Shown piece by piece: positions 8,780 through 30,642 of a stretch of 40,759 nucleotides of DNA (within the stretch, counting starts at the first letter, position 1; each line of letters begins with the position of its first letter). Source of the stretch: a virus; IMG/VR virus record IMGVR_UViG_3300035659_000045, positions 1 through 40,759 of that record. The stretch is one strand, 5' to 3'. The notes below the pieces were generated by a model that saw nothing but the letters and a program-made list of their open reading frames with translations, did no database searches and had not been told where the DNA came from. A program made the position numbers and the translations under genes.

Positions 8780-8808
8780 GAGATCTTTTTCAGGCCACGA
8801 CCTTGAAC

Positions 8809-9336
8809 CTAACGAACGTGTGCCCACTTCACGCGTCGAATGATCTGACTGATGGTGAAGGCGCTCACGCCATAACGTTTTGCAATCGACTTCTGTGACT
8901 TTGAGTGAGCAACGCCTTGTTTTCCGGGTTCATATTCAGCACGAATGCACCGAACATCAGCTTCGGTAAGTTTCGCGTGCGGCGACTCTTCTCCATGCAA
9001 GCTGACTCGTCGTCTACGCTTGGTCATGTCGCTCTCGTTGTCCTTCGGCGCCCCCAAGTACAGATGTGAAGGCCGAATGCACGGAGGGTTATCGCATTTG
9101 TGAAGAACCCATCTTCCGCTTGGAATTTTACCGTAACGAAGTTCCCAAGAAACGCGATGCGCAAATGCCGCACCCGCTCCTGCAGGACCGCGGCCGATTT
9201 GCCCATACCCGACATTTAATGATGCGGTCCAAACCCAGCACCGCGTCTTCATGTGCGGTTGCTTGGGACCAAGCTTATTGACCTTCGGCCAGAAACGCTC
9301 TGCGAGCGAACCTCGAATCGTTCGGCTCCTCATCAA
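8809..9336 (-). CDS. HNH endonuclease with C-terminal helix-turn-helix
   Basis: This free-standing homing-type endonuclease of about 175 aa looks complete. The N-terminal block RFWPKVNK...CWVWTAS is followed by the HNH core VLHKCDNPPCIRPSHLYLG (about residues 78-96). A C-terminal region (SQKSIAKRYGVSAFTISQII) has the pattern of a helix-turn-helix, often the DNA-recognition part of such enzymes. The TTG start at 9336 overlaps the helicase TGA by 4 nt, while ATG 9333 is one codon later; neither has a strong ribosome binding site. The gene is inserted between the SF2 helicase and the DnaB region. Confidence 0.88.
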   Translation of the reverse strand: MMRSRTIRGSLAERFWPKVNKLGPKQPHMKTRCWVWTASLNVGYGQIGRGPAGAGAAFAHRVSWELRYGKIPSGRWVLHKCDNPPCIRPSHLYLGAPKDNESDMTKRRRRVSLHGEESPHAKLTEADVRCIRAEYEPGKQGVAHSKSQKSIAKRYGVSAFTISQIIRRVKWAHVR

Positions 9337-10808
9337 TCCACTATAACATGAAAGCCTTCATCGGTGTAGAGCGCAAGTCTCTCTTGACTGTGTCGCGAAA
9401 GCCACTTGTGCGTCAGGTCGCTGAAGTCGACGACATCGAGTCGGTTGTCGTCCTTCTTCGCGCGGAGACCACGGCCGATCTTCTGCAGCACGTTCGCGGT
9501 CGACTGTCCGCCGTCCGCGACGATGAGCGCGCGAATGCTCGGGATGTCGACGCCCTCGCCGAAGATCGGCGACGCGACGAGCACATTGATCTTGCCGTCC
9601 GTGAGCCGCACCTTCTGGCGCTCGATCTCCTCGGTCGGCATCTGGCCGTGGACGAACGCGTGCTTCACCTTCCGCTCGCGCAGCAGGTCGCACAGCTTGT
9701 CGCCGTGCCACAGCTCTCGCACCAGGATCAACGTAGGCCACTCCTTCTTCGCGAAGCGAGCGGCTCTGCCCGCGATGACTCCGTTGCGTACATCGTTGAG
9801 GACGATGCCCTCCTTGTAGACGCTCTGCCAGTCGAGGTCGGCGTCGATCTTCGGCTTAGTGATCTCCACCATGCGAATGGTCGGTATCGCGTTGACGCCG
9901 AGCTTGCCCAGCTCCTGGTTGGTGACGAGCGCGACGATCGGTCCGAACGCGGCCTCGACCATGAGGCCCTTGCCGTCCGCGAGCCCGAACGGGGTACCAG
10001 ACATACCGAAGCGCCATGGCGCGTCGATGCGCTGGACGAGCCGATAGAACGACTTCGCGGAGGCGTGATGCGTCTCGTCGAGGATGAGCAGGTCGATCGT
10101 CTTGAGGTACTTCGCGATGATCTTCTTCTGCGCCTCGCCCTGCGTCCGGGTGAGGCTCTGCACGGTTGCGATCGTGATGTGCTTCGGATCGAAGCGGCCA
10201 TCACCGATGATGCCGATGTGCTCCTCGATCGTGCCGAGGCGCAGCGCGATGCGCTCGCGTGCCTGCTTGAGCAGCTGCTTGGTGTGGACCAGGAACAGGC
10301 AGCGGCACTCGGACAGCGCCTTGATGATCGCCGCGGCGATCTCGGTCTTGCCGCCGCCGGTCGCCACGTCAAGCAGGCCATGCCCTCTCTTCAGCGCGCT
10401 CCTGACCACGCGGAGCTGGTCGGGACGTAGCTTGATACCGGCGAGCATGCTCGGCGTGACACGACGCTCTCCAGTACCCAGAGGAGGACGCTTGCGCTCG
10501 TCCTTGGTCTTCATGACCTTGTAGCCGGCCTCGCGCAGCAGCCTCTTCAGGCGCCGCATGATGCCCTTGGGGAACGTGGAGCCTTCCGCGTAGAACATGT
10601 GCCTGCGGCCGTCCCACAGGCCCTGCTGAACGACTGGGTTGAAGTGCGCGCCCTTGGTATCGATGGCGAGCGCATCGTCCAGGAGGTTGACGATGCGCGT
10701 GCGCTCCTTCTTGGCCTTCTTCTTGTCCCAGCCCGGATAGCGGAACCTGACCACGCAGCGCACGTTCGAGAGCATCGTCACCGTGGCGCGTCGTTCAGGC
10801 TCCGTCAC
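9333..10808 (-). CDS. SF2 DNA helicase, UvsW-like
   Basis: The protein has 491 aa. After an N-terminal domain of about 110 residues (including the FNPVVQQGLWDGRRHMF block, like the DNA-binding N-domain of T4 UvsW) comes the helicase core: Walker A in VATGGGKTE (about 148-156), the DEAH-box variant LDETHHAS (about 243-250), motif III FGMSGTP, and the C-terminal VASPIFGEGVDIPS and QKIGRGLRA motifs. UvsW-type enzymes remodel recombination and replication intermediates and help switch to recombination-dependent replication. The GTG start at 10808 lies just downstream of a TTGACA-bearing palindrome. It is the first gene of the replication module after the structural genes. Confidence 0.92.
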   Translation of the reverse strand: MTEPERRATVTMLSNVRCVVRFRYPGWDKKKAKKERTRIVNLLDDALAIDTKGAHFNPVVQQGLWDGRRHMFYAEGSTFPKGIMRRLKRLLREAGYKVMKTKDERKRPPLGTGERRVTPSMLAGIKLRPDQLRVVRSALKRGHGLLDVATGGGKTEIAAAIIKALSECRCLFLVHTKQLLKQARERIALRLGTIEEHIGIIGDGRFDPKHITIATVQSLTRTQGEAQKKIIAKYLKTIDLLILDETHHASAKSFYRLVQRIDAPWRFGMSGTPFGLADGKGLMVEAAFGPIVALVTNQELGKLGVNAIPTIRMVEITKPKIDADLDWQSVYKEGIVLNDVRNGVIAGRAARFAKKEWPTLILVRELWHGDKLCDLLRERKVKHAFVHGQMPTEEIERQKVRLTDGKINVLVASPIFGEGVDIPSIRALIVADGGQSTANVLQKIGRGLRAKKDDNRLDVVDFSDLTHKWLSRHSQERLALYTDEGFHVIVD

Positions 10809-10815
10809 CTACGGA

Positions 10816-10846
10816 ACCTACCCTCTTATCGTTGACAATGTCAACG
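10816..10846 (-). promoter_or_regulatory. Second palindromic promoter/operator copy
   Basis: A 17-bp palindrome (10830-10846) reads on the minus strand CGTTGAC-ATT-GTCAACG and contains TTGACA at 10839-10844. A candidate -10 follows after 17-18 nt (GTAGGT or TAGGTT, weak). It has the same arms and spacer length as the site at 4344-4358. It lies between the last virion-type gene and the SF2 helicase, where a promoter for the replication module would be expected. Confidence 0.5.
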
Positions 10847-11299
10847 CTAAGAACCGAAGGCGAACAGCATCACGCGGACCGTTGTCTGGACGCTTGGCGT
10901 GCGCGCGATCGACAGCGCCGTGTACGCGATGGTCTGCGAGGCGATGAGCATGAAGCCGTCGACCTCGATCGGAGCAGCCGCACCGGCCGGGCTCGTCAGC
11001 TTGGCGATGACAGGGTTGGGTGCCGCAAGCACGCCGGTCGGGAAGCCAGGAGACGGCGGGATGCCGATGTTTGGCATGACCTTGATGACGACCCAGTTCG
11101 CGCCGTTCACGAGCGATCCGAAGGTGACCGGCGTGTCGCCATCCGCGGTGAGCGTGTACTCCTCCTCCTTGCGGGCTGAGCACGCCATCTGCTCCAGGAC
11201 GTCGGCGAGCCACGTCGGGTTCGACGAGCTGTCGACGTTCGGGACGGGCGCCGCGTACCTGAGCCGCCCGGAGAACTGCACGGTGCCTGAGATCGTCAT
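10847..11299 (-). CDS. Virion-type hypothetical protein
   Basis: The protein has 150 aa. It is beta-rich with many Ala, Val, Thr and Gly and few Cys, and begins MTISGTVQFSGRLRYAAP. The pattern (FGSLVNGANWVVIK, then a variable loop, then DGFMLIASQTIAYTALSIA) resembles small beta-sandwich proteins of phage virions. No family can be named. ATG 11299 has AGGAGG about 6 nt upstream. It is the last gene of the structural block before the promoter at 10830. Confidence 0.75.
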   Translation of the reverse strand: MTISGTVQFSGRLRYAAPVPNVDSSSNPTWLADVLEQMACSARKEEEYTLTADGDTPVTFGSLVNGANWVVIKVMPNIGIPPSPGFPTGVLAAPNPVIAKLTSPAGAAAPIEVDGFMLIASQTIAYTALSIARTPSVQTTVRVMLFAFGS

Positions 11300-11308
11300 G
11301 GATGCCTC

Positions 11309-11722
11309 CTAGAAGAACACGGTGGTGACGGCTGGCTCGACGACGAACTGCCGGTTGGAGAGCACCTGAGAACGCTTCCCGGTGGCGAGCTGGACCCAGG
11401 CGTCGCACCAGTACGACGCGTCGGAGTCGAGACCGGCGGTGTCGGCAGGGTCGAGGAAGATCTGCGCCTGACCCATCGTGGCGCCGGTCTGCGGCACCGT
11501 GATGAGGATCTGGCCGTCGACGCCGCCGGCCGTGACGTTCTTCTTGGTGATGATCGCGTTGATGTCTTCGATGCGGTTCTTGGTCGTGAACCAGACCTTG
11601 GCACCGGTGAGGTCCACTGGCTGGAGGGTCTTGCTGTCACGCACAGCCAGCAGGAACGTCTTGCTCTCGCCACGGACGACCGTGATGGGTTGCGGTGGAG
11701 CCTGCGGGTTCGTGCAGCTCAC
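11309..11722 (-). CDS. BppU-N-like Ig-fold virion protein
   Basis: The protein has 137 aa. The segment beginning at residue 13 (TVVRGESKTFLLAVRDSK, then DLTGAKVWFTTKNR) resembles the N-terminal beta-sandwich of phage baseplate upper/tail accessory proteins of the BppU type: a Gly-Glu-ser-Lys strand, then Val-Asp-Leu-Thr-Gly-Ala and an aromatic strand. Such domains attach receptor-binding parts to the tail tip. The GTG start at 11722 overlaps the TGA of the repeat protein gene by 4 nt, so the two are probably translated together. The family call rests on pattern only. Confidence 0.7.
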   Translation of the reverse strand: MSCTNPQAPPQPITVVRGESKTFLLAVRDSKTLQPVDLTGAKVWFTTKNRIEDINAIITKKNVTAGGVDGQILITVPQTGATMGQAQIFLDPADTAGLDSDASYWCDAWVQLATGKRSQVLSNRQFVVEPAVTTVFF

Positions 11723-13959
11723 TTGATGCTTCCTTCGAGGAGGTCGCCCACGACCGCAAGGGTACCATCAAGGTCGCCCTTTGTGGTCACCCCGCTTGCG
11801 AGGTCGCCGACCGTGCTGAACACGGCGTCGAGGTCACCTCGCACCAACACGGTCGCCGCCAGGTCGCTGATCGACGTGAGCGTGGCGATGAGGTTCGGCG
11901 AGGGAGCGGGCGTCGGTGGGAGAGCCGACGGGAAGTCCTCCGGCCCCAGGAACGGGTCCGGCTGCTTCCAGATCGGCCACGTCTGACGCGGCCACGTCGT
12001 GTCTTCGTCGAACGACACGGTCGCGGCTCTGACCTCATCACCGATCGGGACGAACGGGTTGACCCATGGGTCAGGCAACGTCCGGTTGTGGATGAGGACG
12101 GGTTCTTCCTCGATCGCGTTGATCGTGAATTCGTGGTCGACGCGGAACGACTGGACGCTCCACACGCGCTCCTTCGTGACGCCGGCGAGACGGTCGTCTT
12201 CCTCGACGGTGGTGCGAGCAACCGACTCATCCACGTCGACCAGCGCCAGCGTCGATGTCCCAAGCGGTTGCGTCGGTAACGTGCGGACGTCGTTTTCCTC
12301 GACGCGCGTGCGGGCAGTCGACTCGTCCACGTCGACAAGAGCGATGGTCGACACTCCGAGGGGTTGCGTGTAAACGACGTGGAAGTCCTCCTCCTCGACA
12401 CGTGTGCGAGTGATGGAGTCATCGACGTCAACGAGCGCGACGACCGAGACGCCGAGAGGCTGGGTCGAGTAGACATGGAAGTCATCCTCCTCGACGCGAG
12501 TCGCAGGCACGTTGTCTTCCGGGCCGACGAGCACTCTGCTCTCGATCGGGATGAACACCGAGCCGGTGAGCAGAGCGTCGTCGTCGACGATCGCCACAGA
12601 TGGCACCACGGGTGTCTCTTGGTCGATCGGTGCAACGACAGACGTGACGAGAGGTTGGGTCGGAAGCGTGCGGACGTCGTCTTCCTCGACATGAGTGGAC
12701 GGAGCGAGCGAATCATCGTTGTCTGCGATGGCAACCTGAGACGTGACCAGAGGCTGCGTCGGAAGCGCGCGGACGTCGTCTTCCTCGACATGAGTGGATG
12801 GAACCAGCTCATCGAGATCGACCAGCACAATGGTCGAGACGCCGAGTGGTTGCGTCGGAAGCGCGCGGACGTCGTCTTCCTCGACATGAGTGGATGGAAC
12901 CAGCTCATCGTTGTTGTCAGCGATCGCGACGACTGACGTACCGAGCGGTTGGGTAGCCGGCGAACGAACGTCTCCTTCCTCGACGGAGAATGTAGTCGTG
13001 GTCGCGATCGACTCGTCGAGGTCGACGAGCGCGACGACTGACGTACCGAGCGGTTGGGTAGCCGGCGAACGAACGTCTCCTTCCTCGACTGTGGTGCGTG
13101 CGACCGAGTCGTCGACGTCGACCAGCGCGACGACTGACGTACCGAGCGGTTGGGTAGCCGGCGAACGAACGTCTCCTTCCTCGACTGGGATCCGCACCGT
13201 CGAGTCGTCGACGTCGACCAGCGCGAGCTGACTCGTCACGAGCGGTTGGGTCGGAAGCGTGCGGACATCGCCTTCCTCGACCCGCGTGCGCGCGATCGAG
13301 TCATCCACGTCGACAATCGCGACTTGGCTCCAGGTGAGCGGCTGCGTGGGGAGCGTGCGGACGTCGTTTTCCTCGACGCGCGTGCGGGCAGTCGACTCGT
13401 CCACGTCGACAAGAGCGAGTTGTGATGCGACGAGAGGTTGGGTCGGAAGCGTGCGGACGTCGTCTTCAGCGATGCTGATGCTTGGAGAAATGACGTCGTC
13501 GACGTCGACCAGCGCGAGCTGACTCGTCACGAGCGGTTGGGTCGGAAGCGTGCGGACATCGTCTTCAGCGATGCTGATGCTTGGAGAAATGACGTCGTCG
13601 TTGTCGACACGCGCGACCTGACTCATGGTCAGGAGTTGCGTCTGCTGCGGGAAGATCGGGTCGTCGTCGACAGGAGACGTCGCGGCCGGAGTCGGAAGCT
13701 CATCGCGATCGACAGGCGCCATGGTCGGCGCGACGTCGAACGGCAAAGCTGGCTTCGGCTGCGCCGCGTCGTCGTCGGGACTGTTCGACTGCGGGATCAG
13801 GTACCGCTCGATGCCCGGCTTCGTTACGGTGGTGTGGACGACACCTTCCGTCGTCGAGAATTCAGGGCCGCGATCGGACCACTGACTGCCCGGCTGATTG
13901 GCACCGGCTCGGGGACCGATCCGCCGACCGCCGCCGAGCCCCTTGTTGATGCTAGACAC
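11719..13959 (-). CDS. 746-aa acidic tandem-repeat protein
   Basis: Function is unknown. Residues 1-97 are a Gly/Pro-rich lead. Residues about 98-613 are about fifteen copies of a 32-33-residue unit with the core EEDDVRTLPTQPLVTS followed by xxALVDVDDSxARTRV; the first, one middle and the last copy are degenerate. A proline-rich linker follows (PSALPPTPAPSPN), then a short C-terminal region of VxGDL units. Each repeat has an acidic turn, a Pro pair and a hydrophobic strand, suggesting a beta-solenoid or a chain of small modules. Some copies are nearly identical in DNA, indicating recent duplication. The GTG start at 13959 lies 3 nt after the stop of the preceding paralogue gene. Neighbours suggest a virion or fibre role; a host-surface or ligand-binding role is speculation. 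Confidence 0.85.
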   Translation of the reverse strand: MSSINKGLGGGRRIGPRAGANQPGSQWSDRGPEFSTTEGVVHTTVTKPGIERYLIPQSNSPDDDAAQPKPALPFDVAPTMAPVDRDELPTPAATSPVDDDPIFPQQTQLLTMSQVARVDNDDVISPSISIAEDDVRTLPTQPLVTSQLALVDVDDVISPSISIAEDDVRTLPTQPLVASQLALVDVDESTARTRVEENDVRTLPTQPLTWSQVAIVDVDDSIARTRVEEGDVRTLPTQPLVTSQLALVDVDDSTVRIPVEEGDVRSPATQPLGTSVVALVDVDDSVARTTVEEGDVRSPATQPLGTSVVALVDLDESIATTTTFSVEEGDVRSPATQPLGTSVVAIADNNDELVPSTHVEEDDVRALPTQPLGVSTIVLVDLDELVPSTHVEEDDVRALPTQPLVTSQVAIADNDDSLAPSTHVEEDDVRTLPTQPLVTSVVAPIDQETPVVPSVAIVDDDALLTGSVFIPIESRVLVGPEDNVPATRVEEDDFHVYSTQPLGVSVVALVDVDDSITRTRVEEEDFHVVYTQPLGVSTIALVDVDESTARTRVEENDVRTLPTQPLGTSTLALVDVDESVARTTVEEDDRLAGVTKERVWSVQSFRVDHEFTINAIEEEPVLIHNRTLPDPWVNPFVPIGDEVRAATVSFDEDTTWPRQTWPIWKQPDPFLGPEDFPSALPPTPAPSPNLIATLTSISDLAATVLVRGDLDAVFSTVGDLASGVTTKGDLDGTLAVVGDLLEGSIK
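12121..13668. repeat. Coding tandem repeats, period about 96-99 nt
   Basis: About fifteen in-frame units of 96-99 nt inside the 746-aa gene. Nearly identical DNA copies of a stretch of more than 50 nt begin near 12928, 13030 and 13129. A second, longer pair starts near 13434 and 13530. Every unit keeps the reading frame, and other copies have diverged at silent and non-silent sites. Confidence 0.9.
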
Positions 13960-13962
13960 GCG

Positions 13963-15087
13963 TCATCCCCACGCCACGTTGACACCAGCACTCGACGTCG
14001 GGCCAGTGGCGGCGATGGGGTTCAGCAACGCGAACGTGAGACATGCACCGTCACGGACGCGAGGGAGCGCGGAGATCTGCTTCACGTAGTCGTGCGAGTA
14101 CGTGTCCTCCAGCCCGTTGTAGATGGGGATCCACGCGAGTGGGAACCCGAGGATGTAGTTGTTCGACTCGGCCGGCGTGGCGCTCATCGTGATCGAGTCG
14201 AGCTGCTTGACGCCAGAGTCCCCATTCTGCAGCGGGACCATCAGGAGGCTGGCGCCAGGTCCGGTGGTGATGTAGCTGAAGCAGGACAACCCTGGGTTGC
14301 CATTACCAGGAGCCGTTGCATTGTTCACGGTCGTCATCGTCGTGCCCGGGATAGTTTGCCCAGCCGTGCCGCCGATGCTCGTGTACTTGAAGCTCGTGTA
14401 GCTTGTGCCACCACCACTCACGGTGTTGTACATCCCCATGATCTGGAGACCAGGATCACCTGCCGAGATGTAGCGCTGCGCCGGCAGCGTGTTGGTGAAC
14501 GTCGTCGGCGTTGCAGACGTGACCGTCTGGTCGTACGTCAGCACCATGTCGTACAGCACCATCAACCGTGCCGATGCGGCGACGTCGTCGGTACGCACCC
14601 AGGCGCTGATCACGTGCTTGGTCATCGGCGACACGTTCCCGCCGTGCATGAGTGCGCCGAGGGTCTGGTCGTTGCGTTGACGAGCAGTGGCCGCGGTCCC
14701 TGCGAAGTCGCCGGCGGCCGGGTACTCGTTGACGCCGAAGTGATGGGTCCAGTCCTGGAGGAGAGTGCCCGTGCTGATGCCCTTGAACCAGAAGGCTTGC
14801 CGCATCTGCCCGTTGACCGTGATCTGGCGGATCATGCCGTCGACGGAGTTGAAGCCGCAGAGCAACCCGTTGCGGTCGATCTGCGTCTGCATCCATGGCT
14901 TGTGGTGGAACACGTACGAGCAGTGTTCGAGCCATGACCACCCGCACCAGGCGAAGACCCGCCCGCGGTGGAGGATCGGCATCAGGCGAGACACGCCGAA
15001 CGCGTTCCTCGCGACGAACTGCGCAACGCGCAGCTTGTCGTGGTCGCTCGACCTCGTCTTGCTCTCCGTGTGGGCGCCGACGAGCAT
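13963..15087 (-). CDS. Virion-type protein, paralogue 4 of a four-gene array
   Basis: The protein has 374 aa. It starts MLVGAHTESKTRSSDHDKLR, similar to the start of the paralogue at 16178 (AGAH...TRSKTRHSDHD). Shared core blocks follow in order: a P-AAGD-xxGTAxTARQ block, GGNVSPMTKHV, LYDMVLTYD, TNTLPAQRYISAGDPGLQI, and a final D-G-ACLTF block close to the C-terminus. The protein is Thr/Gly/Ala-rich and beta-prone, typical of virion proteins. ATG 15087 forms TGATG with the preceding stop; GTG 15090 is one codon earlier and equally possible. It is not recognised as a known family. Confidence 0.85.
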   Translation of the reverse strand: MLVGAHTESKTRSSDHDKLRVAQFVARNAFGVSRLMPILHRGRVFAWCGWSWLEHCSYVFHHKPWMQTQIDRNGLLCGFNSVDGMIRQITVNGQMRQAFWFKGISTGTLLQDWTHHFGVNEYPAAGDFAGTAATARQRNDQTLGALMHGGNVSPMTKHVISAWVRTDDVAASARLMVLYDMVLTYDQTVTSATPTTFTNTLPAQRYISAGDPGLQIMGMYNTVSGGGTSYTSFKYTSIGGTAGQTIPGTTMTTVNNATAPGNGNPGLSCFSYITTGPGASLLMVPLQNGDSGVKQLDSITMSATPAESNNYILGFPLAWIPIYNGLEDTYSHDYVKQISALPRVRDGACLTFALLNPIAATGPTSSAGVNVAWG

Positions 15088-16178
15088 CACCCGTGCACCA
15101 GCCACAGCTTGCCCTGAACGTCCGCGGCGTTGTTCGACGCCTGCGTCGCGAGGAAATTCAGGCACGCGCCGTCGAACACGCGCTCCAGCGTGAACATGCC
15201 GCGCGCGAGGTCCTGCCGGGTGACGACGCTGTTGGATCCCCACATCGTGGCCAGCGGCTTGACCAGCGCGAAGCACACCGTGCCAGTGTTGATCGCCGAG
15301 CTGACGAAGGTCTCGATCTTGCGCAGGCCGGTCACCCCGGGACCCATCGGCAGGAACGGAGAGTCGTGGATGGCCGCGCCGATCGCCGGCTGCGTCGCCG
15401 ACGGACTCGGGATGCCGACCTCCCAATTCACGGTGTAGCCCGGGTTCCAGGTCACGGCAGTGTTGCCGTTCTGGTCAGTGAACGTGACCGTATTGATGTT
15501 GGACGCGGTCGCACCCGTCACCGCCGACACCATGACGGAGATGAGCAGCCCGTCCTGACCCGCCGAGATGTAACGCTGGGCGGCCAGCGTGTTGGTGAGC
15601 GTCGTCGTCGTGGTGGTGATCGACGCGCCGTCGTACGAGAGCACGCGGTCGTACAAGAACAGCTGCCGGTTCGTCGGAGTCGTGGCGCCGACGACGGCGA
15701 CCTCCCACTGCGCGACGTGTCTGGTTTCGGTCGCTGCGGGCTGCAGGTACCGATGCTGGATGCCACCGACGGTCGTGTTGTCGAACTGCCGAGCCGTGTT
15801 CGCGGTGCCGCTGTAGTCGCCGGCGCCAGGAGACCCACCGCACGGCCAGAAGTCGGTCCAGGCGAGGCCGCCGACGGTGAGGCTCGACGTGGTCTTGTTC
15901 CACGTGATCCGCGTGTACTTGCCGTTCTTCGCCTGCTGGTCGAGGTCCGGGTAGCCTTGGAAGCCGCACCACTGCCGTCGCGTGAGCGGCATGTAGTCAG
16001 CCCACGAGCCGTCCCACGAGCCGCGGACGAGCCCGACGACCTCGCCGGCGTGGAGGACAGGAACCGCCTGCGGGACCTTCCTACATGCGAGCAGGGCACG
16101 CTCGACGGCGTCGTCGACCGCGGACGGGTTCCACCGCGTCTTGCGGCGCGTATGCACGGCCGCTGTCTCTTGCAGCAT
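15087..16178 (-). CDS. Virion-type protein, paralogue 3 of a four-gene array
   Basis: The protein has 363 aa. Starting at MLQETAAVHTRRKTRWNPSA, it keeps the array signature: WTDFWP, PGAGDYSGTANTARQF, LFLYDRVLSYD, LTNTLAAQRYISAG and FDGACLNFLA near the end. The middle (FLPMGPGVTGLRKIETFVSS) aligns with the paralogue at 13963 (LMVPLQNGDSGVKQLDSITM). ATG 16178 overlaps the preceding TGA in TGATG, with GTG 16181 as the alternative. The direct abutment with both neighbours suggests expression at similar levels. Function unknown. Confidence 0.85.
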   Translation of the reverse strand: MLQETAAVHTRRKTRWNPSAVDDAVERALLACRKVPQAVPVLHAGEVVGLVRGSWDGSWADYMPLTRRQWCGFQGYPDLDQQAKNGKYTRITWNKTTSSLTVGGLAWTDFWPCGGSPGAGDYSGTANTARQFDNTTVGGIQHRYLQPAATETRHVAQWEVAVVGATTPTNRQLFLYDRVLSYDGASITTTTTTLTNTLAAQRYISAGQDGLLISVMVSAVTGATASNINTVTFTDQNGNTAVTWNPGYTVNWEVGIPSPSATQPAIGAAIHDSPFLPMGPGVTGLRKIETFVSSAINTGTVCFALVKPLATMWGSNSVVTRQDLARGMFTLERVFDGACLNFLATQASNNAADVQGKLWLVHG

Positions 16179-17290
16179 CACCAGCCTGCCTCCACCCAGC
16201 CGTGGTCCATGTGACCGTTGCCGACGTGAGGGTTGTGGAGGAACGACAGGCACGCGTCGTCGTAGATGCGCTTGTTGATCGAGTCGATGCCGAACTGGAA
16301 CTCCTGGTCGGCCACGGTCGCAGTGCCGACGCCGTCGATGAACAGCGCGTACGGGAACTGGAGGACGAACGCGTTGGTCCCGGTCGGAGCCGCGCTCCAC
16401 GTGAAGTTGGTAATCGACCTGACGCCCTCGTCGCCGGCCTGGAGCGTCAGGTACGGGTTCGCATTCTTCGTGGACCCGCCAGGGGTCTGGATTACTGCTC
16501 GTGCTCCGATCTGCTTCGTTGGTGCAGCGATGGAGACGATCTTCGACAGCGTCGGCGTCGTGACCACGGTGCGCGACGCCGTGCCAGTCTCGTTCACATA
16601 CGTCAGAACCGTGAGGTTCGCGGCCGTCGCGTTGTGGACCGTGTCCGCCTCGATAAAGATCTGCAGCCCTGGATCTCCGGTCGAGATGTAGCGCGTCGCG
16701 GCGAGCGTGTTCGTCATCGACTGTGAGCCAGCTGTCATCGTGCAGGCGTCGTACGAGAGCACGCGGTCGTAGAGCACGAATGCGTCTGGCGACTGCCCGG
16801 TGCCGTTCGCGTAGGCCAGCATCGAGGCACGCGTCAGGTACTTGATCGCCGGAGTGACGTTGCCGCCGGTGTACAGCGCACCGGCCGTCGAGCCAGTGAA
16901 TTGACGAGCTGTGAGCGCCGTGCCGGACCAATTACCTGCCTGCGGGTACCCGTCGAGGCCCCAGAGGTCGTACCAGTTGTCGATGACGTGCGTGCCGATC
17001 GCGGCCTTGGTCCAGTACTGAGCCCAATGCCTTCCGCTCGTCTTCTGGACGACCGCTTGGTCGTAGTCGACATACGGGTGGTCCTGACCACAGCGGATCA
17101 GCGTGCGGCCACGGACGGGATCTCCCTTGACGTCGCCGACGTGCCTGCCACGTGAGATGACGGCGACCCAGACTGGAGTGTCGCGCCACAACCACGCGGC
17201 GCGGCTGAGCGCACGCTGCTCGTCGTGGTCGCTGTGTCGGGTCTTCGACCGCGTCCGGATCGCAGCGCTATGTGCGCCGGCGACTACCAC
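16178..17290 (-). CDS. Virion-type protein, paralogue 2 of a four-gene array
   Basis: The protein has about 370 aa. Array signature blocks: NWYDLWGLDGYPQAGNWSGT, ALTARQFTGS, GGNVTPAIKYL, FVLYDRVLSYD, SMTNTLAATRYISTGDPGLQ, YLTLQAGDEGVRSITNF and IYDDACLSFL. GTG 17290 is the best start: it overlaps the preceding TAG by 7 nt, with a GGTGGGA stretch about 10 nt upstream. The N-terminus (AGAHSAAIRTRSKTRHSDHD) matches that of the paralogue at 13963, so those two share an extra N-terminal element that the others lack or have lost. Function unknown. Confidence 0.83.
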   Translation of the reverse strand: MVVAGAHSAAIRTRSKTRHSDHDEQRALSRAAWLWRDTPVWVAVISRGRHVGDVKGDPVRGRTLIRCGQDHPYVDYDQAVVQKTSGRHWAQYWTKAAIGTHVIDNWYDLWGLDGYPQAGNWSGTALTARQFTGSTAGALYTGGNVTPAIKYLTRASMLAYANGTGQSPDAFVLYDRVLSYDACTMTAGSQSMTNTLAATRYISTGDPGLQIFIEADTVHNATAANLTVLTYVNETGTASRTVVTTPTLSKIVSIAAPTKQIGARAVIQTPGGSTKNANPYLTLQAGDEGVRSITNFTWSAAPTGTNAFVLQFPYALFIDGVGTATVADQEFQFGIDSINKRIYDDACLSFLHNPHVGNGHMDHGWVEAGW

Positions 17291-18456
17291 CCGAAGCGGT
17301 TCCCACCTTGGAGCGTGTACGCGGTCGTCGCTACCTGGTAGCTCATGAGCGACAGGCACGCGCCGTCGAAGATCTGCTCCAGCTCGCTGATCTGGTAGAC
17401 GCAGTCCTTCTCGACCGGGATCGCGGCGACGGGAAGGATGAGGTCGGTCAGCGGGTGCATGAGCACGAGCGTGAACGTGCCGGTGTTCGCGGCGCTCGGC
17501 GTGTAGTCGTTGACGAGACGGCAGCCGGTGTCGCCGATCGCGAGCGGCATGAAAGCACCCCACGTCGGGGTCGCCGCCGACGACGGCGCGATGACGATGG
17601 CGCCGAGGGTCGCGGTGGGTGCAGCGCCCGAGACGACGATCGACACCGTCGGTGTGGTTGGCATCGTCTGGAGCGTCGTGCCAGCCTGGTTCGTGTAGCG
17701 AAGCTGCGTGATGTTCGTCGCCGTGCCACCATTCACCGTGCAGACGCAGAAGACGATCAGGAGACCTGGAGCGCCGGCGTTGTAGCGCTGCGCGGTCAGC
17801 GTGTTCGTCATCGTCTGGTTGACGGCCGCAGCATACGGGTTCTGGTCGTACGAGATCACGCGGTCGTACAGCATCAGCATCGGCGTGTTGGCCGTCGCCA
17901 CCGCCATCGCCGAGAGCATGTGCTTCGTGTCGGTCGACACGTTGCCGCGGTGGTTGATCGCGCCCGTGCTGCCCTCGGTCCACTGCTGCGACGTCTTCGC
18001 AGTGCCAGCCACCGAGCCGGCCGACGGGTTGCCGGTGACCGGCCACAAGTCGTACCAGCGGTTCGCGACGCCAGTGGAGGTCGGCGTCTTCGCCCAGTAG
18101 GTCCTGCCGAACTTCCCGTTCGTCAGGTCGTTGATCATCGCGTTCTGGTCTGCCCATGGCATGAGCAGCATGTCGGCCTTGAGCTGCTCGTTGTCCTTGA
18201 ACTTCGACCTGTACGTCTGGCGCAGGCGCGCGAAGCGGACGTCAGGAGAGAATGGACCACGGCCCTGCGTGATGCCGATGACGCGACGGTTAGCCGTCAC
18301 GTACGTGGGATGGAGCCTGCCCCGCGCCATCTCGATGGCACCCTTGATCGCCCGCGCCTCCTCGTCGTGCGTGTAGAGGCTCCGTGGCGGAACACCGATG
18401 ACGTGAGGCGCCTTCCTCCACGCGTCGCGGGCTGGCTCAGAGAACGTTTCAACCAT
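17284..18456 (-). CDS. Virion-type protein, paralogue 1 of a four-gene array
   Basis: The protein has 390 aa and is the first transcribed and longest member. Its N-terminal region of about 110 residues (MVETFSEPARDAWRKAPHVI onwards) is helical and differs from the others. The shared part begins at RWYDLWPVTGNPSAGSVAGT and continues with GGNVSTDTKHML-type, LMLYDRVISYD, TMTNTLTAQRYNAGAPGLLI, MPLAIGDTGCRLV and FDGACLSLM blocks. ATG 18456 follows a gap with two hairpins, so this gene probably starts a new transcription or translation unit. No known family is recognised. Confidence 0.85.
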   Translation of the reverse strand: MVETFSEPARDAWRKAPHVIGVPPRSLYTHDEEARAIKGAIEMARGRLHPTYVTANRRVIGITQGRGPFSPDVRFARLRQTYRSKFKDNEQLKADMLLMPWADQNAMINDLTNGKFGRTYWAKTPTSTGVANRWYDLWPVTGNPSAGSVAGTAKTSQQWTEGSTGAINHRGNVSTDTKHMLSAMAVATANTPMLMLYDRVISYDQNPYAAAVNQTMTNTLTAQRYNAGAPGLLIVFCVCTVNGGTATNITQLRYTNQAGTTLQTMPTTPTVSIVVSGAAPTATLGAIVIAPSSAATPTWGAFMPLAIGDTGCRLVNDYTPSAANTGTFTLVLMHPLTDLILPVAAIPVEKDCVYQISELEQIFDGACLSLMSYQVATTAYTLQGGNRFGW

Positions 18457-18553: not shown

Positions 18554-19021
18554 CTACTCCTCGTGGTCGAAGCTGAACTCGTACGCCATCGAGGCGGTGC
18601 CCGACGCGTCCATGCCGCTGATGCTGAATGCGCCGCCGCCTTCGATGGCGAGCCCGGCGTCCATGTTCGGCTTGGTCCACCCACCGAGGTTGGTGCCGCT
18701 GCACCCGGTGATGAGGCCGTTGGTGCGTGTGGTCCCCGACGTCGGTCGAGACGCCGCGGTCGCCTTCGCGGCCTGCATGCCTGGGTCGACCGGCGCCGGC
18801 GTGATGCCGGTGCCAGCGGTGGAGGCGATACCCCACTTGATGATGCGCATGACGATGCCGGAGAGCTGTGTGAGACCAGCTCCCTTGCCGAGCATCGAGA
18901 GAGCAGCGAACACCGCGTTGCGGACGCCGGCCTTCAGGAAGAAGGCTTCGGTCTCGGTGTTCGGCGTGGCGTTCGTCGTGAGGTTGCCGGCGGTGGCCAG
19001 CGAGGATCGGTAAACCATCAT
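18554..19021 (-). CDS. Virion-type hypothetical protein
   Basis: The protein has 155 aa from ATG 19021, which has GGAG 7 nt upstream; a longer frame from 19048 would overlap the preceding gene. It begins MMVYRSSLATAGNLTTNATP and is Ala/Thr/Gly-rich. A helical middle (FLKAGVRNAVFAALSMLGKG) is followed by a beta-rich, Gly-rich C-terminus ending FSFDHEE. No family is recognised; composition and location suggest a virion or tail-fibre-associated protein. Confidence 0.75.
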   Translation of the reverse strand: MMVYRSSLATAGNLTTNATPNTETEAFFLKAGVRNAVFAALSMLGKGAGLTQLSGIVMRIIKWGIASTAGTGITPAPVDPGMQAAKATAASRPTSGTTRTNGLITGCSGTNLGGWTKPNMDAGLAIEGGGAFSISGMDASGTASMAYEFSFDHEE

Positions 19022-19032
19022 GGGCGTTCTCC

Positions 19033-19296
19033 TTAACCCTTCGGCCACCAGAAGCCGGCCGTCTTCTGGTCGGCTTCCGTCTTGGCGAGCTTCGCGGCGG
19101 TGACGCCGCCGGCGATCTGCAGGTGGACCTCGCCGGCTTCATCCGTGTGCTCGTTGTAGAGCGCGAGGTCGACGGTCTCCGCGTCGTAGGAGTCCTTCGC
19201 GAGCAGGCCGTTCACGAACGTCTGCGCGCGAGTGACGGAGGCGGCGCGCTGACCGTCCCCGTCGCAGTACCAAACTTTGTCCCTGTTCTTCGCCAT
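19033..19296 (-). CDS. Small hypothetical protein
   Basis: The protein has 87 aa, starting MAKNRDKVWYCDGDGQRAAS and ending KTAGFWWPKG. ATG 19296 has GGAG 6 nt upstream; ATG 19302, two codons earlier, is less well spaced. The middle is acidic and helical. No domain is recognised. It lies 2 nt downstream of the 133-aa gene and 11 nt upstream of the 155-aa gene, so the three form a tight unit. Confidence 0.72.
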   Translation of the reverse strand: MAKNRDKVWYCDGDGQRAASVTRAQTFVNGLLAKDSYDAETVDLALYNEHTDEAGEVHLQIAGGVTAAKLAKTEADQKTAGFWWPKG

Positions 19297-24897: not shown

Positions 24898-25334
24898 GGT
24901 GTTGCAGTTGCTCCTCCGACGGTGTCGACGGCTCCGATGTCAAACGAGGTGATGAGCGGCAGCTGTGATGGCCACCCACCGTCACGCAGGATCGTGAACG
25001 TGTATCCACCATTATTGTTCGAGACGCGCGTGTTCGTGTTGTTGGTGTAGAACACGCCGAATCGGCTGCCCGTGAACACAGTTTCGTCACCCACGATCCC
25101 CGGGAAGTGAGCATTGATCCATGCCTTGCGGATCGGGAAGCCGGTGCTTCCTGAGATGGTGATCACGATCGGTGTCTGCTGCGTGGCCGGTGGCAACGCC
25201 GTCACCACTGTGATCAGTGGTGAGAGCGCAAGTGGAGCCACCTGTGTCCCGAGGACGACCTGCCCAAGCCTGGCCCGAGGCCACAGGAAGTAGAGTGGCG
25301 TGTCTCCGAAGTATGCGCCATTGCGGACGGTCAT
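24894..25334 (-). CDS. Virion-type hypothetical protein
   Basis: The protein has 146 aa from ATG 25334 (MTVRNGAYFGDTPLYFLWPR). This start overlaps the preceding TGA by 4 nt; the frame extends to 25364 but that would overlap more of the upstream gene. It is beta-rich with a Gly/Asn-rich C-terminal half. No family is recognised. It is tightly coupled to the fibre-like gene downstream. Confidence 0.75.
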   Translation of the reverse strand: MTVRNGAYFGDTPLYFLWPRARLGQVVLGTQVAPLALSPLITVVTALPPATQQTPIVITISGSTGFPIRKAWINAHFPGIVGDETVFTGSRFGVFYTNNTNTRVSNNNGGYTFTILRDGGWPSQLPLITSFDIGAVDTVGGATATP

Positions 25335-26347
25335 GCGATCACCGGCGTGGTCACCCCGTCCCACGGCATGATGAGGGCGCCGAGAGCGAGGAACTGCAGG
25401 GCGCCGAACGTGTCACCATGCGCTGGGACAGCGGCGTTGTTGGTCAGGGCGGCCCACCAGTCGATCCGGTTGCCGAGCTTGCCGTTTGCGTTCGCCGTGT
25501 TGCTCATGCAACCCATCGGCAGGAGGATTTCGTTCGCAGACCCCTGCAGCTCGGGCTTCTCGACGGTCCAGAAGGTGCCGCCGAACCCGCCGATCGACCC
25601 GAAGGCCTCGCCGCTTCCACCGACGAGGCAGCTTACGTCGACAGATGTGTGCACCTTGGCCACGCCACCGACCGTGTTCACTGACCCGCTCGACATGATC
25701 GAGTTGCTCGTGTTGGCAAACTGATAGTTGGTGGAGGTGTTGCCGTAGAAGAAGCCCCACACGGGTGGGGAGAACGTCGCCGGAAGAACGACCTGCGAGG
25801 TCATCTTCTCCACCCCCCAGAACGACTGCGGCAGAGACGAGCGGTAGACGATGACCCTGAACATCGTCGCGGTCGAGTTGACCCAGATGTCGTAGACGCG
25901 GTCTGCAGAGGCAGTGGCGTTGACGATCGTCGTGCCAGAGACGACGACCTGCTCGTCGGTTGCAGTCGGCTGCTGGTTCGTCGTGCCGGCGAGCGCGAAC
26001 AGAGCGCCGGGTGAGAACGAGATGCGGCAGATGTCGTCGCTCGCCCCTTGGAACGTGAGGAGAATCTGGACGCCGTTGCCGTCGAGAAGGACGATCCAGG
26101 CCTGCGAGGCCGCCGCGATGGTCGCACGTGGGGTCCACGTCGCCGCGCTCGTGATTCGATCTGTGTGATCGGCTGCATTCGTCGGCCCGGTGCCGCCGCT
26201 TGCCGACCAGACGACGGTGTAGCCGTGGGTCACGAGCCAGTTCTTGACGTTGTAGAACACCTGTTGGGTCGCGTCGATCACGGAAACGAAGTTCGCCCGG
26301 TGGTTCGGGTCGATGCTCCAGGTCTGGGTCGGTACTGGTAGGGTCAT
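25331..26347 (-). CDS. Virion structural protein
   Basis: The protein has 338 aa, starting MTLPVPTQTWSIDPNHRANF. It is beta-rich with many Trp, Phe, Thr and Ser. The N-terminal half reads as a jelly-roll-like domain (RISFSPGALFALAG, YDIWVNSTATMFRVIVYRSS), and the C-terminal half is Gly/Ser-rich. The gene lies directly downstream of the J-like baseplate gene, in the position often used for tail or baseplate accessory and fibre-connector proteins. No family can be named. Confidence 0.77.
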   Translation of the reverse strand: MTLPVPTQTWSIDPNHRANFVSVIDATQQVFYNVKNWLVTHGYTVVWSASGGTGPTNAADHTDRITSAATWTPRATIAAASQAWIVLLDGNGVQILLTFQGASDDICRISFSPGALFALAGTTNQQPTATDEQVVVSGTTIVNATASADRVYDIWVNSTATMFRVIVYRSSLPQSFWGVEKMTSQVVLPATFSPPVWGFFYGNTSTNYQFANTSNSIMSSGSVNTVGGVAKVHTSVDVSCLVGGSGEAFGSIGGFGGTFWTVEKPELQGSANEILLPMGCMSNTANANGKLGNRIDWWAALTNNAAVPAHGDTFGALQFLALGALIMPWDGVTTPVIA

Positions 26348-26370: not shown

Positions 26371-28470
26371 TTAGACGACCGTCACGTTCGTGTCGCCGAT
26401 GCGCATCAGCGTGCCGTTCGGCAGTGAGATGTTGGACGGTGGAGATATGATCGCCGTGTCTGCAACACCTGGGAGCGCGACGATCGCACCGATGATCTCC
26501 GCGAGCACGACCGTGGCGCCGATGCCGAGCGCGTTCACGTAGGTCTCGACGACGAGCTGCACCGAAGCAGCTAGCTGCGTGACCGTGAAGCCGCGCGCCG
26601 GCGTCACCTTGATCAAGAATGCCTGACCGAGGATCGTCGGAACGGCGACGAGGATCTGCGTGCCTGCAGCGCGATAGCCCGGGAAGTCGGAAAAGTCGGA
26701 TGGATCGCCGTTGATCGATCGTTGCGCGAAGGCCGCGAGGCCGCTGGAGTACAGGTATGCGCCGAGCGACGGCGCGGCGCCATCCGACGCAGCCACGAGG
26801 CCGTCGTGAGCAGCGAGACCTGCCGTGATCTCCAGATCGCCAGTCGACGCGTTGAACGTGAAGTCGGTGCCTGGCACGAGGGGAGTGCCAGCGAGGTTGT
26901 AGACCGAGTAGCTGCCTGCGCTCGGCACGTCGCCGCTCGTGAAGATGAAACGGACGGCCGTGTTCGATGCGATCAGCCGGAACACGTTGTCGACGGTCTT
27001 GAGCCACATGCCCGCGAACGCGTTCACCGTCATCGCCTGTGAAGTGTCTTCCAGGAAGTTCAGTCCGACGGACGTCGATGACCCTCTGGCTGTACCAGCG
27101 CTGGAGAACACGCGCGGCGCGACGGGCGCGATCGTTGAGTAGTTGTACGGAGGTCCGTACGTGCCGAGCTTGCCGCGACGATCACCAACCGTGGCATCAG
27201 AGATCAGCACGTCGCGGCCGAGGAACGGCTGCTGGCCAAGGGAGAACGTCGGCGTCCCGTCTGTGATGTACAACGTGCTCTGCCCTGGGCTGATCGGCTC
27301 CACGAGCTGCACGAAGGCCGTCGACGCGCCGGTCACAGGATCGACCAACGACTTCGCGAACGTCATGATGGCGAGCGGAGTGGCGCGAGTCAGGCTCTGG
27401 AGGAAGTCCTTCAGGCGCTGCCGGAAGTCGTCGTCGCCCTCGATGTCGGACCCGCGTGTGGCTGCGGAAGGGTTGGTAACCGTCGCGTTCGCAAACGGTG
27501 GTGTCGACCACTTCGTGATCGTGTTGGCGCCTGCGCGCGTCGCAGCTCCGACCAGGTTCGACTCCACCGGGATGAGGCCGGAGACGAAGTCGCCGTCGAA
27601 CAGCGTGCCCGACTGCGTGACGTGGAAGTTGACCTGTGGTGTGGACAGCGACGGTGGGACGAATGCACCCGTGCCGACAGACACTGCCTGGTCGACGCCG
27701 CTCGTGCTCTGGATTACGACAGAGCCTGCCGCATGGGCAAACGTCGTAGGAGCACCGAGCGTCAGCAAGTCGCCGACGCGTGTGAAGGTGATCGTCTCGC
27801 GAGTCACGAGGCTGCGGTCGAAGATGACCGACCCAGACGCCGCCCACGCTGCTCCGGTGCCGGCAACCAACGTGGCTGACAGGGCGCCGACGTTCACCAG
27901 CGCGAGAAGCGTCGATCGGATCGACGCGCTCACCGCAGGCTCGCCTGCGGCGTGGCTGCGCTGGAGGGTGTTGCCGCTGCCGGACAGGATCACTGTGAAC
28001 ACGTTGAGGACGCGCGAGTAGATCAGGTCCTCCTCGTTCGCCGTGCCCGCCGAGATCGTGATGTAGCCGGAGGTCGGGAACAGCGACCCGTCCAGGACGG
28101 AGAACGTCGTGCTGCCGTAGAGGACGTCGACAGCGAGCGTGGTTGAGCGGAGGACGGCGCCGTTGCCGGCGATGACGTTGCTGATGCTCGTCTCTGCTGG
28201 CTTACGACGCAGCGTCACGTTGAGGTCGGAGCCGATCTCGATCGCGCGCTGGTCGAGATCGTCGCCACGACACTTGTCGAGCTGGAACAGATTGAGCAAC
28301 CGGCTCATCTGCACGTACTGCTCGGCGTCACTCAGCGATGCGCACTCCAGGACCGTCCGCGTCGCTGACCCTGGGATGAGGTCTGCCTGAGACCCACGGA
28401 TGTTCTGGATGTGTGCGAACATGTTCGCGAGCACTTCAGGGTAGGTCAAGAATCTCAACGCGGTCGGCAT
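26371..28470 (-). CDS. Baseplate J-like wedge protein
   Basis: The protein has 699 aa and belongs to the J/gp47-type family that forms the wedge of contractile baseplates and connects hub and fibres. The N-terminal 110 residues (EVLANMFAHIQNIRGSQADL, then a GSATRTVLE stretch and DDLDQRAIEIG) match the family entry region. Two inserted beta-rich modules follow, each with a turn of the form YSRVLNVF or FTRVGDLL and an A-H-A-A-G stretch (SHAAGEPAV and AHAAGSVV). Then comes the conserved GSDIEGDDDFRQRLKDFLQS block typical of the family, and a beta-rich C-terminus. Larger than the usual 350-400 aa because of the insertions. Its stop is 23 nt before the next gene. Confidence 0.9.
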   Translation of the reverse strand: MPTALRFLTYPEVLANMFAHIQNIRGSQADLIPGSATRTVLECASLSDAEQYVQMSRLLNLFQLDKCRGDDLDQRAIEIGSDLNVTLRRKPAETSISNVIAGNGAVLRSTTLAVDVLYGSTTFSVLDGSLFPTSGYITISAGTANEEDLIYSRVLNVFTVILSGSGNTLQRSHAAGEPAVSASIRSTLLALVNVGALSATLVAGTGAAWAASGSVIFDRSLVTRETITFTRVGDLLTLGAPTTFAHAAGSVVIQSTSGVDQAVSVGTGAFVPPSLSTPQVNFHVTQSGTLFDGDFVSGLIPVESNLVGAATRAGANTITKWSTPPFANATVTNPSAATRGSDIEGDDDFRQRLKDFLQSLTRATPLAIMTFAKSLVDPVTGASTAFVQLVEPISPGQSTLYITDGTPTFSLGQQPFLGRDVLISDATVGDRRGKLGTYGPPYNYSTIAPVAPRVFSSAGTARGSSTSVGLNFLEDTSQAMTVNAFAGMWLKTVDNVFRLIASNTAVRFIFTSGDVPSAGSYSVYNLAGTPLVPGTDFTFNASTGDLEITAGLAAHDGLVAASDGAAPSLGAYLYSSGLAAFAQRSINGDPSDFSDFPGYRAAGTQILVAVPTILGQAFLIKVTPARGFTVTQLAASVQLVVETYVNALGIGATVVLAEIIGAIVALPGVADTAIISPPSNISLPNGTLMRIGDTNVTVV

Positions 28471-30642
28471 CTACGATCCTCCAACGTTCACTGAGATCGG
28501 CAACGCGGTGCGCGAGGCGACGGGTTGGATCTCTGCGGTCAGTGTGAACACGTCGCCGGCGACACTGATCTGCGCGTTACGGACACGATTGATCCGAGGG
28601 TCAGCTAGCAGTGAACGTCGCATGAAGAACACGTAAAGGATCCCGACGTGGGCAGTGTAGGGGCGCCCGACCGGAGAGGGCAAGCCATACGTCGGATGGA
28701 ACGGGTGCTGTCCGGCCTGACATCTGGCTCGAAGGTTGATGGCCTGGATCAGGTTGTCGATACCAGAGACGGTGGCGAGGTCCCCCGTGGCATCCCACGC
28801 GAGGTCGACGCGGCCGTCGCCGACATTGACCGCGCGTAGGTCCGTGCCGTACGCCCGCGTGTCAGCCGTGATTGGTCGATTCATGTTGAGCTGAGCTAGC
28901 ACTACCACGTACGTCGTCACGCCTGGCGTGATCGCGATCGCCCACGTCCCGTTGAGCGAGAGCTTGACCGCGGTGTTCGAGGCGACGACGTGAGAGTCGG
29001 AGACGCCGCCGGTCGTCGCGGTCACGGTGTAACCGACCCACTGGTTGGCACGCCACGACTGCGTGTTGTCGATCAGCTCGCTGAACGTCGCTGCGGTGGT
29101 GACCGTGCCGGCGACCGTCGGCACCGCAACGTCGCTCGGAGCATCACCAACAGAAGCGGTCGTCTGCTGGGTCGACTGGTAGAGGATGGACTCGCCCCAC
29201 GCGAGCGTGTTGGGTGGCTTGTTGTTCGCGCTCGCGACGATGAACGGGAACTCCAGCCTGTTGAGGAGGATGAGGTCGGTGAAGCGTTCGATCTTCCCGG
29301 TCAGACGACGCGCGATCGCGTAGATGTCCTCGCCGTTGTAGACGACGGTCGACGACACCTGCCCGGCGTTGAGGAGACGATTGAGGTCGGTGATCAACGA
29401 CAGACCAGAGGTGCCGAGGAATGGGTTGGCATCTGGTGACCCGGTGCTGCCGGTCGCCTCCTGGAGGAAGTCTGTGGTCGAGCCCTGCGCTCCACGACTG
29501 GTCGAGTAGCGTTGGTGGGTGTCGGCGATGTCGGTACGGACCTTCGACCCGACGATCTGCGTCATGCTGACGGACAACGAGTCGTATAGCGCTGTGACCT
29601 CCAGCCACCACTCATTCATCTCCAGCGCTGCGTCACGAGACGTGAACACGTTGACCGCGGCGGCGTACTTCCCGATCACGCGCTCCAGCCCGGCGAGCGA
29701 GTCGCCGAGCTGGTTGAGCAGCGCTGGCACGAGATCTAGCTGCTGAGAGGCAGTGTCAACGATGTTCTCGAAGAACCCGACGACGTTGTCGAGGTTGTTG
29801 AGCGTCGACTGCATCGCACGCTGCGCGACCGAGTCGAGGAACTTGAGGTAGTTCACGCCGCTCGTGACCATGTCCGCGTAGCGCGCGATCGTCGTCAAGA
29901 TGTTCTGCGGGATGGCTCGCTTGCCGAGGCCGAGGCCGGGATGAAAGCCGCTGGAGTCGCTGAGCGGGTTGGTCTCCAGGTCTGTGCCGTACATCGCGGA
30001 ACCGAGCACGAACGCTGACGCCTGCGCCGGCGGCGACTTGTTGTCCGACGGCTCGATGCAGCGGAACTGGATGTTATAGTCGTATGACATCGGCTTCCGG
30101 CTCGAACGAGTCATCTCGAAGACGTCGGGCTCGACGCGCCAGTAGTCGTCGTTCTTCTCGTCGAAAAAGTACAGCTTGGCGTCGATGTTGCCGCGACGCC
30201 GCTCGGCTCCGTACGCGCGGAACAGGTACCGCAGCTTCATGAAGGCGAGGTAGCCGGACACCGCTCCGAGCTGAGCGTCAAGGTCGGTGGCCAAGCGCGG
30301 CAGCATGAGCGCGTTGCCATTACCCTGCAGCGCCACCTCCGCGTTGAACAAGAACCCCGTGGTGCCAGAGATCGACCCCATCTTGATCACCTGACCGCGG
30401 GACTCGATCACCTTCCCGCCGTCTTGCATGATGGTGACCTGCGTGGCGAACGGCTCGCGCAGGGAGATCTGCTGCGGCAGGAACAGCTGGACGGCGAGGT
30501 CGCTGGCCTCGAATGCTTCACCGCCGTCAGAGTCAGTCACGGTGACGCCCGGCAGGGGCATCATGAACGAGTACGCGAACGCTCCTGAGTAGCGCCGACC
30601 GCTGGATACGTCTGGAGGTTGTGGGTCGAATGAGTCTGCCAT
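28471..30642 (-). CDS. Baseplate protein with LysM-like and gp25-like domains
   Basis: The protein has 723 aa. The N-terminal half is mixed alpha/beta. A LysM-like segment (TVVYNGEDIYAIARRLTGKI) lies near residues 430-490, as in gp53-type baseplate proteins. The C-terminal 120 residues (GDLATVSGIDNLIQAINLRA, then HPFHPTYG and RRSLLADPRINRVRNAQIS) match the gp25/lysozyme-like wedge family. In many phages these are two separate genes, so this looks like a fusion of a gp53-like and a gp25-like wedge component. ATG 30642 follows the Ala-rich gene after a 7-nt gap, and the stop abuts the J-like gene directly. Confidence 0.85.
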   Translation of the reverse strand: MADSFDPQPPDVSSGRRYSGAFAYSFMMPLPGVTVTDSDGGEAFEASDLAVQLFLPQQISLREPFATQVTIMQDGGKVIESRGQVIKMGSISGTTGFLFNAEVALQGNGNALMLPRLATDLDAQLGAVSGYLAFMKLRYLFRAYGAERRRGNIDAKLYFFDEKNDDYWRVEPDVFEMTRSSRKPMSYDYNIQFRCIEPSDNKSPPAQASAFVLGSAMYGTDLETNPLSDSSGFHPGLGLGKRAIPQNILTTIARYADMVTSGVNYLKFLDSVAQRAMQSTLNNLDNVVGFFENIVDTASQQLDLVPALLNQLGDSLAGLERVIGKYAAAVNVFTSRDAALEMNEWWLEVTALYDSLSVSMTQIVGSKVRTDIADTHQRYSTSRGAQGSTTDFLQEATGSTGSPDANPFLGTSGLSLITDLNRLLNAGQVSSTVVYNGEDIYAIARRLTGKIERFTDLILLNRLEFPFIVASANNKPPNTLAWGESILYQSTQQTTASVGDAPSDVAVPTVAGTVTTAATFSELIDNTQSWRANQWVGYTVTATTGGVSDSHVVASNTAVKLSLNGTWAIAITPGVTTYVVVLAQLNMNRPITADTRAYGTDLRAVNVGDGRVDLAWDATGDLATVSGIDNLIQAINLRARCQAGQHPFHPTYGLPSPVGRPYTAHVGILYVFFMRRSLLADPRINRVRNAQISVAGDVFTLTAEIQPVASRTALPISVNVGGS

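Follow-up and report, generated by a model that had tools for sequence, protein, structure and literature searches.

A tandem array of four diverged paralogues in a virus genome, probably related to thread-like phage fibres

Fiber I of the Ralstonia podophage GP4 is reportedly composed of gp80 dimers arranged along an elongated 'rope' protein, with five such fibres attached to the neck through a 15-fold mount. In Bcep22-like phages, relatives of gp80 with 58-68% identity to the protein of GP4 are followed by a repeat protein (gp56 of BcepIL02) and by a PF23148 gp77 adaptor (gp57; 8jou_D). All three proteins are annotated as virion-associated in BcepIL02, and no match to gp56 was obtained among the PDB sequences. 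Another gp80 relative, gp53 of phage JC1, was detected by mass spectrometry in purified virions (PMC9144972). The GP4 gp80-like gp35 of Alishewanella phage LSH1 (GenBank PX020959) belongs to an extra structural module, gp34-gp36, in which, by its description, it stands beside a lyase-like and a beta-sandwich protein; this module resembles the loci considered here in that pairing, but consists of three genes and contains no array (PMC13243795). A bead-chain fibre has also been described at the neck of the Anabaena myophage A-1(L) (gp82-gp81-gp80; PMC10966104). It is similar to the structure proposed below in having a repeated bead, a differing anchor and tip, and adjacent genes, and differs in the size of its proteins (~240, 168 and 201 aa by our own gene assignment) and in the lack of a repeat protein. 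Homology to this neck fibre was rejected, as the profile of the family described here did not match its gp80-gp82.

The DNA analysed in this study (the window) is a virus record of 40,759 bases, which codes for a contractile tail and for a replication block with a DNA polymerase, a primase, and DnaB-type and other helicases. Between these two blocks, on the minus strand and behind the baseplate genes, are the four array genes P1 to P4, of which P1 is the upstream-most (Table 1). The positions and lengths given for these adjacent genes in a preliminary description of the window were correct. The ends of the ORFs overlap by 1-7 bases, as might be expected of one operon. In pairwise BLASTP comparisons the four proteins were 30-38% identical, with E-values of 1e-22 to 1e-48 and scores of 94-166 bits, compared with at most 29.6 bits over 200 shuffles of P2. 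The homologous stretch common to all four was ~280 residues long. As had been described, the blocks LYD(R/M)V, TNTLxAxRY, GTAxTxxQ and DxACL were present in every copy in identical order. By these comparisons P1-P4 are diverged paralogues, as first proposed; they are old copies of one unnamed family.

Table 1. Coordinates of the array, of its neighbours in the window and of related features in other loci.
Locus	Feature	Coordinates	Strand	Length (aa)	Remarks
Window	P1	17284..18456	(-)	390	B-type family member; ~25 residues unique to P1 at the N-terminus, then a helix/hairpin domain, helices 86-112 and a beta-sandwich at 116-389
Window	P2	16178..17290	(-)	370	B-type family member; GTG start
Window	P3	15087..16178	(-)	363	B-type family member
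Window	P4	13963..15087	(-)	374	B-type family member
Window	Repeat protein	11719..13959	(-)	746	Directly downstream of P4
Window	Beta-rich protein	11311..11722	(-)	~137	Downstream of repeat protein
Window	Small protein	18554..19048	(-)	up to 164	Directly upstream of P1
Window	Candidate second receptor-binding protein	25331-26347	(-)	338	Next to baseplate genes
Window	Baseplate	26371-30642
Window	Hub/lysin proteins	31887-35833
Window	Sheath	37286-39067
L016	Repeat protein	14498-16867		789	Counterpart of the 746-aa protein
L018	Repeat-bearing protein	8790-9980		397	Upstream of array
L101	Second repeat protein	11899-14115		738	After C
L123	B protein with inserted module	9986-11164			~95-aa beta module

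An N-terminal domain of ~75 aa, with a helix and a hairpin, was present in diverged form in all four proteins. The claim that an SKTR/SDHD element in this region occurs in two copies and is lacking from the others was therefore wrong. Its counterparts are RRKTRWNPS in P3 and PRSLYTHDEEARA in P1, and a profile from which P1 and P3 were left out detected both proteins at E-values of 4e-7 and 3e-17, the set searched being very small. The N-terminus said to be peculiar to P1 proved to be so in part: the ~25 extra residues ahead of the domain were found in P1 only, whereas the domain behind them is shared by all four.

Searches with P1-P4 against Pfam, PHROGs, NCBIfam and the PDB sequences gave no family match (in Pfam, none of note). 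This is in agreement with the earlier failure to recognise a known family, and the profile searches did not assign the copies to different known families in Pfam, PHROGs or NCBIfam. The PF23140 profile, which represents the GP4 gp80 family, also did not match P1-P4. Confident AlphaFold2 models of P1 (mean pLDDT 85.9, core mostly >90) and of a protein of clade A, defined below (mean pLDDT 93.6), both presented eight main strands behind a short helix. For two separately predicted members, the best PDB matches in Foldseek were viral jelly-roll capsid proteins (E-values of 1.1e-3 and 1.5e-5), while the strong matches in a viral structure library were uncharacterised phage proteins. The likeness to the capsid proteins, which include birnavirus VP2 and those of tetra- and nodaviruses, lies in the eight main strands that both predicted models show and in the recurrence of such proteins as top matches; TM-scores were ~0.2 or less, there was no sequence similarity, and no sign of a capsid function was seen. 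Assignment to the viral jelly-roll capsid fold was dropped because of these TM-scores, and the predicted fold is described only as an eight-stranded beta-sandwich that is loosely jelly-roll-like. Some relatives of P1-P4 in clade B carry a beta module of ~95 aa inserted in the loop after the TNTL block (for example in locus L123), and this module matched PHROG profiles of tail-fibre, baseplate and baseplate-wedge proteins. As these matches fall in the inserted module and not in the core, the family was not named after them.

More than 150 viral contigs carried the family. With two profiles, 214 and 140 relatives were obtained from IMG/VR, the best 80 of each being fetched, and at least six further phage records carried it, among them an uncultured phage of 642 kb and Pseudanabaena phage PA-SR01, which has one B gene next to a gp80 gene. 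A first scan of bacterial genomes found no family member; a second, with clade A, yielded seven MAG contigs, possibly of phage origin and binned with their hosts. Exactly two adjacent members were present in 145 of 164 sampled loci, with four members in two loci, three in two and one in 15; some of these loci are cut by contig ends and many are near-copies, so that the counts do not represent independent events. A tree of 155 sequences, rooted at the midpoint, had one deep branch with an SH-aLRT of 100 on both sides. Clade A contained 71 first-of-two genes, and clade B the second genes, all of the single genes and P1-P4 (SH-aLRT 100). Throughout the sample A never occurred without B, and B also occurred alone. 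P1-P4 matched clade A across the ~280-aa core (hhalign probability 100, E-value 3.6e-43); the N-terminal domain was mostly missing from members outside the subclade of the window. The fixed A-B pair, which is found across podophage-type and other genomes, shows a very old duplication retained by phages, and the array of four is a natural example of growth in the A/B system. As far as the libraries searched show (Pfam, PHROGs, NCBIfam and PDB), neither the family nor its A/B duplication has been described; structures of the kind proposed for them are known.

In the nearest relative of the window (L016), P1-P4 have one-to-one orthologues in the same order, with identities of 67-73% for P1, 58% for P2, 44% for P3 and 48% for P4, which means that the duplications predate the split between the two. 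The two copies in another locus (L020) are sisters with 63% identity, and thus copy number has grown more than once. A search for further arrays with P2- and P4-like genes recovered only a near-copy of the window itself and the L016 phage.

Upstream of the family there was nearly always a gene for a ~140-aa PF23140 protein ('Podophage GP4 fiber I protein gp80'), with E-values to 2e-45; matches were found among the upstream genes of loci L017, L021, L103 and L139, and the gp80-like profile itself matched PDB chain 8jou_a (1.7e-13). Downstream, mostly at a distance of a few bases, was a gene for a ~250-350-aa protein, here termed C; its N-terminus is conserved, and it usually contains short repeats of beta type (median 283 aa and maximum 372 aa among 123 proteins). 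For loci with room on the contig, gp80 was present upstream in 122 of 132, C downstream in 132 of 140, and both in 98 of 109. The row in L017 consisted of gp80, a B gene (49% protein identity to P1) and a gene for a repeat protein of 274 aa. A two-sequence profile of the gp77-like adaptor (PF23148) had no match in any family locus. In a 220-kb virus contig (L101), C was followed by a second repeat protein, which matched PHROG 11583 (unknown function) at 5e-29.

The likeness to the mounted fiber I of GP4 (gp80, PF23140; gp77, PF23148; PDB 8JOU) lies in the gene neighbourhood: nearly every testable relative has the gp80-like gene upstream of A/B and the usually repeat-bearing C-type protein downstream. 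P1-P4 themselves, however, are not homologous to gp80, and neither gp80 nor gp77 was detectable in the window. As the GP4-like module of BcepIL02 contains no A/B gene, the family is accessory to the solved fibre and does not belong to it. The gp80-like gene was detected by profile in L017, L021 and L101, and was absent from the window, L016, L018 and L020; clade A was also absent from the window. The small protein upstream of P1 is the best conserved neighbour (81-85% identical to that of L016) and occupies the slot of the gp80-like gene of other loci; its interpretation as a diverged gp80 was unsupported, no relation being detectable. In the repeat protein downstream of P4, a unit of 32-33 aa, TQPLxTSxxALVDVDDSxARTRVEEDDVRTLP, is clearly recognisable at least 14 times. 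The protein had no detectable sequence homology to C, scoring no better than shuffled decoys, and was not retained as a sequence homologue. Equivalence of these neighbours to gp80 and C thus rests on position and repeat architecture, by which the repeat protein would be the positional equivalent of the C-type protein; gene order suggests that it corresponds to the 'rope' of GP4. The layout of the window was also seen in L016 and in L018 (897-aa repeat protein, three B copies), and it was in these copy-rich loci without gp80 that the repeat protein directly next to the array was longest (746, 789 and 897 aa). In L018 a second protein, upstream of the array, has the same type of repeat as the downstream one. 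Relatives of the ~137-aa beta-rich protein were found just upstream of the family in some podophage-type modules, mostly before gp80-like genes.

Because this gene set is conserved beside a known chain-fibre protein across hundreds of phages, P1-P4 are probably parts of a thread-like fibre. Our preferred interpretation, held with a confidence slightly above even, is that they are virion structural proteins, most likely the globular subunits of a neck or tail fibre similar to GP4 fiber I, in four specialised copies. The virion role proposed in the preliminary description is favoured by context: in the window the genes follow those of the baseplate, and elsewhere the family adjoins homologues of the fiber I bead protein, which is solved in the GP4 tail structure and has a relative in JC1 virions. 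The ancestral module might have consisted of a gp80 bead, optionally A, then B and a repeat protein; in the myophage lineage of the window, gp80 and A are absent, four copies of B would have arisen by duplication, and the repeat protein would have grown to its present length. The four B proteins could be assembled at different places along the fibre or at its end, bound and held by the repeats, with a division of labour in which the fast-evolving P3 and P4 would be the likelier host-contacting parts. It is a good deal more doubtful that P1-P4 are non-identical beads replacing those of gp80, each with its own place on the long repeat protein, in a new rope-type, multi-specific fibre. On the preferred interpretation, chain fibres of the GP4 type, solved in one podophage, would extend to a module that seems to be widespread and to vary, and that occurs in a myophage as well. 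Uncultured phages commonly carry the family, yet its core matches no curated family in the libraries searched; synteny provides a first testable function.

A location on the head was considered, as the module of podophage-type genomes is situated amid head genes, with median positions relative to it of ~-3.5 kb for the terminase, ~-0.6 to -0.9 kb for the portal and ~+2.4 kb for the P22-type coat protein. A and B, or P1-P4, might decorate the capsid or make up head spikes, as trimers or hetero-oligomers at the surface of the head, for which the Foldseek matches of two members to capsid proteins would also speak. This reading is live but improbable: the TM-scores do not indicate a fold match, the genes of the window are located behind the baseplate genes and away from the head genes, and the family is steadily accompanied by a fibre protein and a repeat protein.

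Rates of change bear on the other live rival, ranked after capsid decoration and likewise improbable, in which the array encodes receptor-binding tips or adhesins that have diversified towards different hosts and do not build a fixed structure together. Identity to L016 was 38-48% for P3, P4 and the repeat protein, compared with mostly 70-85% for the tail neighbours, so the comparison of relative rates suggested earlier did show that P3 and P4 (44-48%) diverge faster than most of the tail. The repeat proteins of these two loci, at ~40% identity, agree in the length of the repeat, and their C-terminus is conserved. Such divergence suits exposed, host-facing parts, and an adhesin array would also be consistent with the fibre-type insertion module in many B genes and with the gene annotated as alginate lyase that follows the pair in MW202738. 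However, the order and one-to-one orthology of all four genes are kept, P1 is as conserved as the baseplate proteins, and A/B pairs stand in order in 145 loci, to which fixed roles fit better than interchangeable cassettes. Between the two possibilities raised in the preliminary description, a hetero-oligomeric virion component (ring or shell) and an array diversifying for hosts, specialised parts fit better than recent diversification, given the age of the copies, their kept order, the orthology of each to one copy in L016 and the A/B pairs across very different phages; no ring or shell was indicated, and the neighbourhood points to a fibre. Since P3, P4 and the repeat protein change faster than neighbouring tail genes, host-driven change may be added to specialisation.

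Co-retention of old paralogues in fixed order might also suggest a hetero-oligomeric ring or collar of four different subunits, which we consider very unlikely, as copy number in relatives is 1, 2, 3 or 4, so that a fixed four-part ring is not general, and no ring-forming homologue was found. The least probable reading is that of non-virion, infection-stage proteins placed by chance among structural genes; no virion proteomics was found for any member (in PA-SR01, gel bands were matched by size only), yet the same flanking genes occur in ~90% or more of testable loci, and the proteins are beta-rich, with fibre-type insertion modules.

Apart from the fibre subunits proposed here, the window contains a 338-aa protein, encoded next to the baseplate genes, which is a candidate second receptor-binding protein; its identity to L016 was 41.5%, compared with ~73% for its baseplate neighbours.
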